Positions 6,298 to 8,249 of a stretch of 64,000 nt of DNA are shown one piece after another. Location of the stretch: positions 23,456 to 87,455 of the forward strand of contig JAUZOQ010000002.1 of NCBI GenBank assembly GCA_030706385.1, written 5' to 3'. Numbering within the stretch: the first letter of the stretch is position 1; every line of letters begins with the position of its first letter. The notes beneath the pieces are model-generated. The model ran no database searches and was not told the DNA's origin. It was given only the letters and a program-made list of their open reading frames with translations. Source of the stretch: Bacteroidota bacterium. GTDB taxonomy: Bacteria; Bacteroidota; Ignavibacteria; Palsa-1295. The translations under genes and the position numbers were made by a program.

Positions 6298-8166
6298 CTA
6301 ATTCAAACCCAAAGGCGTCCTTTTTGAAGCCATCATGCGTTTTGCAATTTCTTTGAATTCGGGCAGATCGCGGATATTTGCGAAATCGGGATCCTTGTTA
6401 ACCGCTTCGCCTGGGTTATATCCTTTCTCAAAAGATTTCTTTAGCATTTCCAGTGCCGGTTTTATTTCCTTCAATCGAGAATATGTGCACGCAATATTAT
6501 AGTAGATTACCGGAGGGACGTCGGTTGCTTTCAAGATAAGGGCAATCTGCCGGTGCGCTTCTTCTTTCAGATCGCGGTTGGCAAGGTTGAGCGCAAACTG
6601 GACACGCACACCACTGACAGCGGGATTCTTCTCAAGATAGAGCTCATACAATGGTATTGACTCATCAATATATCGATTACGCTTGGCCGTATCTCCGAGT
6701 GCTTGGTAGCAATCGATCAGGATTGACCACGCACTAAGATCAGTAATGTTATTTTGTACGGCATGTTCGAGGTAGGTCGCTGCGAGATCGAATTCACCAC
6801 GCTCATAATAGATGTTACCTAGAAAGGATAGAGCACTGATATTTTCAGCATTTTCCGGTTTCATTTCGGCAAAGAGCTTCGCTTCTTTAATTGCCGTATC
6901 CAATTGACCTCGAACCCGCGCAATTGTTGCAAGGACAAAATGCCCCTCGGCAAGCGAGGGATCAATTCGTATCGAGAGCCGCGCCAGGGAGTCCGAAACT
7001 TCGAGATCACGAAGTGTATCACCAAGAGCCTGAAATCTCAATAAATATCCCAGCGACCGGAAATATTGAGCATATGCAAACTTTGGATCGAGCTTTACCG
7101 CTTCTTCGATATATCCCATTCCTTTCATCAGTTGTGCTTCGGAGCGGATATTATCAAGATAGCCGATTCCGATGAGAAACTTGTTATAAGCTTCAGCGTT
7201 CTTCGTGCTCTGATGTGCTGCATTGCTATCGAGGATCCTTTGCTGGACAAGGGATCCCTGTAATTCGAAAGCGATACTTCGCGCCAGCTTCTCCTCAACG
7301 GCAAATACATCGTCGACTGTGCCGTCATATTGATCGCTTCGCAAGACCTTTCCGGATTCGGCATTAATCAGCTGTGAGGTGATCTTAATATTCTTGCCTT
7401 GCTTCTGTACCGTACCATCGACAACGTACTCTATCCCGAGCTCCTTAGCAATTGCATGCAGATCACTCTTGCGGCCTTTGTACTGCATTGCCGTCTTCCG
7501 GTCGATCACTTGCAGCCCACCAAGCCCCGAAAGAGTCGTAATGACCTGCGCCGTAAGACCATCGGCGAAATATTCGTCTTCCTTATCAGAGCTCAGGGAT
7601 TCGAACGGAAGAACGACGATCTTCTTTATCGGTGTTGCTTTTGCCTTAACTGAGCTCTCCGGCTTAGGAGCAAAGAAGAAGTATCCGGCTGCGATCAACC
7701 CAAGAACAAGCATGCCGATGCCGATCTTTGGCCAAATGGATGATTTCCTCGCCGCAGGAAGCGGAGTCTCAGCGATCGTCGTGCTTTCACCAATGAATCT
7801 CTTAACTGCTTCATCGATTCTCTCAAAGTCTTTGTAGGGGACTCGCTGAATGCCAGCCAATTGGTACTTCACCTCATGAGTCAATTCTACAGGCTCTAGC
7901 TCGATCGGGATGATCTTCTTCTTCTCTTCGCTGGCAAGAGACAGTTCTTTGATGACATTGTGCGATCCGAAGGAGTATGGCGAGAGGAGTATCAGAAACA
8001 CTTTGCACGACTCGATCGCCCTTACGATCTCGCTGGACCATTGCGTTGCAGCACTAATATTGGTTTCATCGAGCCACACCGAATAACCCCGCTCTCGGAG
8101 CCTTTCGGAAAGCTTCGAAGCCTTTTCGCGATCATGGGTGCTGTAGGAAATGAATATATCTGCCAT
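6298..8166 (-). CDS. TIR domain - TM - TolB/FlgO-like domain - TPR repeat protein
   Basis: MADIFISYSTHDREKASKLSERL...WLDE...SPYSFGSHNVIKELSLA (TIR); TM helix IGIGMLVLGLIAAGYFFF; KIVVLPFESLSSDKEDEYFADGLTAQVITTLSGLGGLQVIDR...; C-terminal TPRs. Start taken at MADIFIS rather than the ORF-track Met at 8211. Confidence 0.88.
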   Translation of the reverse strand: MADIFISYSTHDREKASKLSERLRERGYSVWLDETNISAATQWSSEIVRAIESCKVFLILLSPYSFGSHNVIKELSLASEEKKKIIPIELEPVELTHEVKYQLAGIQRVPYKDFERIDEAVKRFIGESTTIAETPLPAARKSSIWPKIGIGMLVLGLIAAGYFFFAPKPESSVKAKATPIKKIVVLPFESLSSDKEDEYFADGLTAQVITTLSGLGGLQVIDRKTAMQYKGRKSDLHAIAKELGIEYVVDGTVQKQGKNIKITSQLINAESGKVLRSDQYDGTVDDVFAVEEKLARSIAFELQGSLVQQRILDSNAAHQSTKNAEAYNKFLIGIGYLDNIRSEAQLMKGMGYIEEAVKLDPKFAYAQYFRSLGYLLRFQALGDTLRDLEVSDSLARLSIRIDPSLAEGHFVLATIARVRGQLDTAIKEAKLFAEMKPENAENISALSFLGNIYYERGEFDLAATYLEHAVQNNITDLSAWSILIDCYQALGDTAKRNRYIDESIPLYELYLEKNPAVSGVRVQFALNLANRDLKEEAHRQIALILKATDVPPVIYYNIACTYSRLKEIKPALEMLKKSFEKGYNPGEAVNKDPDFANIRDLPEFKEIAKRMMASKRTPLGLN

Positions 8167-8182: not shown

Positions 8183-8249
8183 CGAATAAATGCAAGGGTA
8201 TTTGGCCGCAAGCCTTTATTTTCACGATGTTCACCCTATTCCGATTATG

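Follow-up and report, generated by a model that had tools for sequence, protein, structure and literature searches.

The gene under study lies in a stretch of 64,000 nucleotides (the window) and encodes a protein in which an N-terminal TIR domain is followed by a single transmembrane (TM) helix, a TolB/FlgO-like domain and a TPR solenoid (Table 1). We propose that it is a one-component receptor of the CadC type whose TIR acts as an NAD+-hydrolase output, a reading to which we give a probability of about one half. The gene belongs to an expanded family, much of it organised in tandem arrays, and its sensor module is also found on other output domains.

Table 1. Features of the window gene, with positions in the window
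Feature	Position	Strand	Basis
TIR-TM-TolB/FlgO-TPR gene, 622 aa	6298..8166	(-)	ORF and translation; Pfam/NCBIfam; AF2 model
TIR domain, residues 1-122	7801..8166	(-)	Pfam TIR_2; profile matches; Foldseek
E74 codon, catalytic-position Glu	7945..7947	(-)	Invariant 92/92; aligned to the Glu of SARM1 'VHKEI'
N70 codon, Trp site of WxxxE in most NADase TIRs	7957..7959	(-)	N in 83/92
Single TM helix, residues 148-166	7669..7725	(-)	Kyte-Doolittle maximum 2.2 over 19 residues; common to 10 relatives, one clade
TolB_N/FlgO-like domain, residues 179-305	7252..7632	(-)	Pfam FlgO; CadC match; Foldseek
TPR solenoid, residues 320-612, end-of-group domain 555-607	6331..7209	(-)	Pfam, NCBIfam, AF2 helices, Foldseek

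The start was placed at the ATG at 8166, in preference to a TTG at 8211 that would add 15 residues, because the family alignment begins at MADIFIS. Pfam assigned TIR_2 to residues 4-121 (87.6 bits against a cut-off of 28, E 1.2e-24), FlgO to residues 179-280 (E 5.8e-6) and TPRs above the cut-off from about residue 340 to 607, and NCBIfam recognised the TPR end-of-group domain with E 1.6e-18. Residues 131-386 also gave a sub-threshold NCBIfam match to CadC (E 2e-11, 43 bits against a cut-off of 400), and the TM helix is the only hydrophobic segment of the protein. The full-length AF2 model, built on a 50-sequence alignment, reached a mean pLDDT of 86.5, and residues 128-178, which form the linker, came out as disordered or uncertain. 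All of its best 50 Foldseek matches were TPR and CadC structures, including TPR superhelices with E-values down to 6e-9 and the CadC periplasmic domain, and the TIR was therefore modelled alone (pLDDT 90). Both the domain layout proposed in the initial annotation and its likening of the C-terminal part to a CadC-type TM-TolB-TPR sensor were thus borne out, the former by Pfam, NCBIfam, hydrophobicity and AF2, and the latter by the NCBIfam and Foldseek matches to CadC. The gene is followed on the same strand by clpX, named from its sequence, and preceded by a small divergent gene. Conserved synteny with clpX was rejected, since the nearest full-length relative (on G002:C1, 46% identity) has different neighbours.

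Profile searches placed Cat1, SARM1/tir-1, AbTir and TIR-APAZ as the nearest solved relatives of the TIR, and the TIR-only model matched the SARM1 and SPARTA TIRs with a TMq of about 0.8 (Foldseek). The initial annotation had placed the catalytic Glu of NADase TIRs at E74, numbered from MADIFIS. This residue lies in S68-HNVIK-E74, and its assignment to the catalytic position, on the C helix in TIR NAD+ hydrolases, is supported by the alignment to the SARM1 glutamate and by its invariance in 92/92 family members. Four residues before it the family carries N in 83, H in 6, S in 2 and E in 1 of its 92 members, while W or Y is commonest at the same position in TIRs fetched from other phyla; the window TIR (N70) thus lacks the Trp of the WxxxE criterion for TIR NAD+ hydrolases. 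In many NADase TIRs this Trp lines the pocket, and its replacement by N70 counts against an NAD+-hydrolase reading. On the other side, the TIR is on average the most conserved domain of the family, and omega values of ~0.01-0.19 in close pairs indicate strong purifying selection, which together with the invariance of E74 is as expected of an active enzyme. The WxxxE Trp is strongly conserved in cADPR-producing TIRs (PMC11374754), and with Asn in its place linear ADP-ribose, and hence NAD+ depletion, would be a likelier outcome than a cyclic ADPR messenger. The natural prediction from the sequence is that the window TIR is an active enzyme making linear ADPR, with an inactive domain as a less likely possibility.

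A TM helix in the linker was found in 11 of the 92 members, namely the window protein and 10 of its 91 relatives, whereas about 80/92 are without one and have short soluble linkers, mostly of 25-50 residues (the borderline alanine-rich linker of L084 was judged not to be TM). The 11 TM-bearing proteins form one clade with modest support (90/76), in which the window protein groups with L036:17306-18379 and the G002:C1 protein at 100/98 and belongs to a group of five members at 95/92. Summed over this clade, K and R residues flanking the helix number 53 on the N-terminal side and 26 on the C-terminal side, so that the positive-inside rule favours a cytoplasmic TIR with the sensor outside; for the window protein alone the count is neutral (3 vs 4). 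The same arrangement is known from CadC, with residues 1-158 cytoplasmic, 159-187 TM and 188-512 periplasmic (PMC3096576). Hence, extracytoplasmic sensing coupled to a cytoplasmic TIR, as the initial annotation had it, is favoured for the TM clade and does not extend to the family as a whole, where the sensor of the TM-less members is presumably cytoplasmic. It counts against the proposed receptor that most relatives have no TM: either one sensor module has to work in the cytoplasm as well as beyond the membrane, or the ligand differs.

The TIR-TolB-TPR family comprises 92 genes in 12 genomes of the window's taxonomic family, with 1-24 per genome; some members run off contig ends, and a 13th genome holds a fragment at a contig end only, so that matches are present in all 13/13 genomes. 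When 294 genomes of the class were searched with a TIR profile, scoring at most 15 candidates per genome so that large counts are lower bounds, every genome of the taxonomic family was positive, whereas only 19/281 of the others had any TIR at E<=1e-12, with one or two each that were much weaker (best 4e-26). Outside the taxonomic family, the class thus has few such TIR genes, or weak ones. Alphaproteobacteria, Bacteroidales and Myxococcales have TIR-TolB-TPR proteins that are more distant; within the class searched, the expansion appears private to the lineage, and the architecture itself is not. The description of the window gene as stand-alone holds for its immediate surroundings and fails for its genome, where there are about 10 more paralogues, six or more of which lie on the 25-kb contig C106. 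The closest same-genome paralogue, L036:17306-18379 (57-62% identity), stops after the TolB domain and has no TPRs.

Head-to-tail copies on the same strand, in some arrays broken up by other genes, number ten on G005:C5, six each on G000:C106 and G002:C5, and four on G011:C62. The overlap between close same-strand neighbours (28 examined) is exactly 8 nt in 13 cases, with the upstream stop just inside the downstream start (e.g. ATGGCTGA), and 1 nt in 5; such stop/start overlaps suggest that the array genes are translationally coupled. Mean identity falls from TIR through TolB to TPR within each array, being 73/66/52% for G005:C5, 59/51/30% for G000:C106 and 55/46/22% for G002:C5. Array neighbours thus differ far more in their TPRs than in their TIRs, as would fit inputs that diverge around an output that stays constant. 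Against this stands the generally fast divergence of TPR regions, in which dS is mostly saturated here. Some pairs look mosaic, with a TIR dN of 0.014 beside a TolB dN of 0.28, suggesting recombination between family copies. In the G000:C106 array an unrelated gene for 625 residues (L034:16232-18109) lies between TIR genes in the same orientation; its product is apparently secreted, judging by eye from a signal-like N-terminus and a sorting-type C-terminus.

The sensor module is shared with other outputs. Ser/Thr kinase-TolB-TPR genes occur in other families of the class (Pkinase E about 1e-56), and one kinase-linked TolB-TPR part is 46-55% identical to those of the G005:C5 TIR arrays and 33% to that of the window protein. 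In a TolB-TPR tree 21/21 kinase-linked sensors formed one clade (99/94) nested among TIR-linked sensors, which indicates a direct swap of output. The kinase genes themselves form tandem arrays in sister families (L182, L184, L190, L191 and L197, in G108, G271, G145, G135 and G144, respectively), and in most of them no TM separates the kinase from the sensor. Among plasmid sequences, the TM-TolB segment found matches in winged-helix-TPR proteins and in adenylate/guanylate cyclases from rhizobia and related bacteria. With the same module on kinases, cyclases and winged-helix domains, the TIR is one of several exchangeable outputs, and since these are signalling outputs they support the receptor reading. 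More tentatively, the family could be seen as a bacterial receptor repertoire, in which TIR effector-receptors are encoded in translationally coupled tandem arrays and combine a near-constant TIR and fast-diverging TPR inputs on a chassis that exchanges TIR for Ser/Thr kinase, a logic like that of expanded innate immune receptor families.

In both trees the G005 array clade includes two gammaproteobacterial copies (L100:7989-9776 and L104:7989-9767), one of which comes from the isolate Thioalkalivibrio sp. XN8; genes of the family have therefore moved between phyla. Strain XN8 carries a second, more distant TIR-TolB-TPR gene (L104:796-2721) and, near both, a gene for another TolB-TPR protein (L104:14581-16662), which has hydrophobic segments at its N-terminus and in which no output domain was recognised.

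In the proposed mechanism, the TolB/FlgO-like domain and the TPR solenoid would bind a ligand or partner, most likely outside the inner membrane in the TM-bearing clade, as in CadC. Binding would alter receptor association via the TM helix and bring the cytoplasmic TIRs together, whereupon the assembled TIR would cleave NAD+ using E74, and linear ADP-ribose would be a likelier product than a cyclic ADPR messenger. The outcome could be death or arrest of the cell upon phage infection or other damage.

A different function for the same protein would be that of a dedicated immune receptor against phages or mobile elements, in which the TPRs recognise an invader protein, the TIR destroys NAD+ and the infection is aborted, with the family as a repertoire of specificities. 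TIRs are common defence outputs, and the lineage-specific expansion to 1-24 copies, the tandem arrays with overlaps of 1 or 8 nt, the divergence of the TPRs beside a conserved TIR, the truncated and fragmentary copies and the transfer of two copies from within the G005 array clade to Gammaproteobacteria would all fit such a role. However, neighbour scans of the family found neither a consistent defence partner nor a clear defence island, and a PADLOC scan of 111 neighbours and 95 more distant genes, two sets that were not length-matched, returned mostly single, generic matches. For the defence role and the enrichment of homologues in defence islands raised by the initial annotation, these scans gave no clear sign, and what speaks for defence is the TIR itself, the expansion and the pattern of divergence; its remark that no recognised defence partner lies beside the window gene agrees with the neighbours seen (clpX, a methyltransferase and the small divergent gene). 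No ThsA-like gene was recognised by eye among these immediate neighbours, and a STALD domain search of 13 genomes gave no ThsA match, its controls being silent as well. Defence-like genes between two TIR genes of L061 were also considered and dismissed, as the PADLOC matches there were limited to a subtilase-type one and a weak one to IetS on one protein. Further, no copy was present among 50,697 phage records and viral contigs gave only five weak, partial matches, so that a phage-borne origin was rejected. Together with the use of the same sensor for cyclase, winged-helix and kinase outputs, this makes the dedicated immune receptor rather unlikely.

The TIR might instead be a non-enzymatic assembly or docking domain, in which case the receptor would signal by drawing in further TIR or TPR proteins and would leave NAD+ uncleaved. 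The Asn in place of the WxxxE Trp in 83/92 members would suit this, as would the presence of scaffolds such as TLR and MyD88 among the structural matches. To our knowledge, scaffold TIRs are generally without the catalytic-position Glu, whereas E74 is kept in 92/92 members across otherwise divergent paralogues, and we regard a scaffold function as quite improbable. Control of a cell-death gene family by the SOS (DNA-damage) response through LexA-controlled promoters is suggested by six genomes of two genera, in which a TIR-TolB-TPR gene is the direct neighbour of the only chromosomal lexA (L079:6385-7301, L068:3314-3682, L052:7348-8377, L051:6521-7527, L063:7631-8599 and L089:5046-6005). Five of the pairs are divergent across the lexA operator region, and the lexA promoter in the shared region has an inverted repeat resembling TA-N-GTGC-N8-GCACCTA. 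However, no LexA-like box above background was found upstream of the other family members, the best site upstream of the window gene has 4 mismatches, which is the background level, and the lexA of the window genome lies on C145, a contig without a TIR match. LexA control was thus rejected beyond the lexA-adjacent copies, and as it would concern a subset of members at best, an SOS-controlled family is very improbable. The main reading of the window gene remains a receptor of the CadC type, with probable NAD+ hydrolysis by the TIR as its output.

In the open-access literature searched, we found no earlier description of this TIR-TolB-TPR family. TIRs, best known as immune effectors, are here added to the outputs that a common bacterial receptor chassis can exchange, and an uncultured lineage of the Kapabacteria/Ignavibacteria type shows an unusual expansion of TIR genes in apparently coupled arrays. 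The close horizontal copy in the isolate Thioalkalivibrio sp. XN8 opens the system to experiment, and the family allows NAD+ hydrolysis, and its product, to be tested sharply in a TIR with N-x-x-x-E that lacks the usual Trp.

SARM1/tir-1, AbTir, Cat1 and SPARTA TIR-APAZ share with the window protein the TIR fold and the catalytic-position Glu, but the window protein has Asn instead of Trp four residues before this Glu, and a TolB-TPR part instead of ARM-SAM, CARF or APAZ. Thoeris ThsB shows weak TIR similarity (ThsB_TIR 18.6 bits against a cut-off of 21.2), from which the window protein differs in its architecture, in the missing Trp tied to cyclic products and in having no recognised ThsA-type partner alongside. 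STAND/NLR-like (Avs-type) TIR-TPR defence proteins also have a TIR at one end and a TPR sensor at the other, as the window protein does, but the latter has no NTPase (STAND/NB-ARC) domain by Pfam and carries a TolB/FlgO-like domain and a TM instead. The CadC/ToxR-like receptors (E. coli CadC; PDB 3LY7) resemble it in their N-terminal output, single TM and C-terminal sensor of TolB-like domain and helical repeats; CadC has a winged-helix DNA-binding output, whereas the window protein has a TIR and scores far below the CadC cut-off. In the kinase-, adenylate cyclase- and winged-helix-TolB-TPR proteins, finally, the TolB-TPR module is that of the window protein and it is the N-terminal output that differs.
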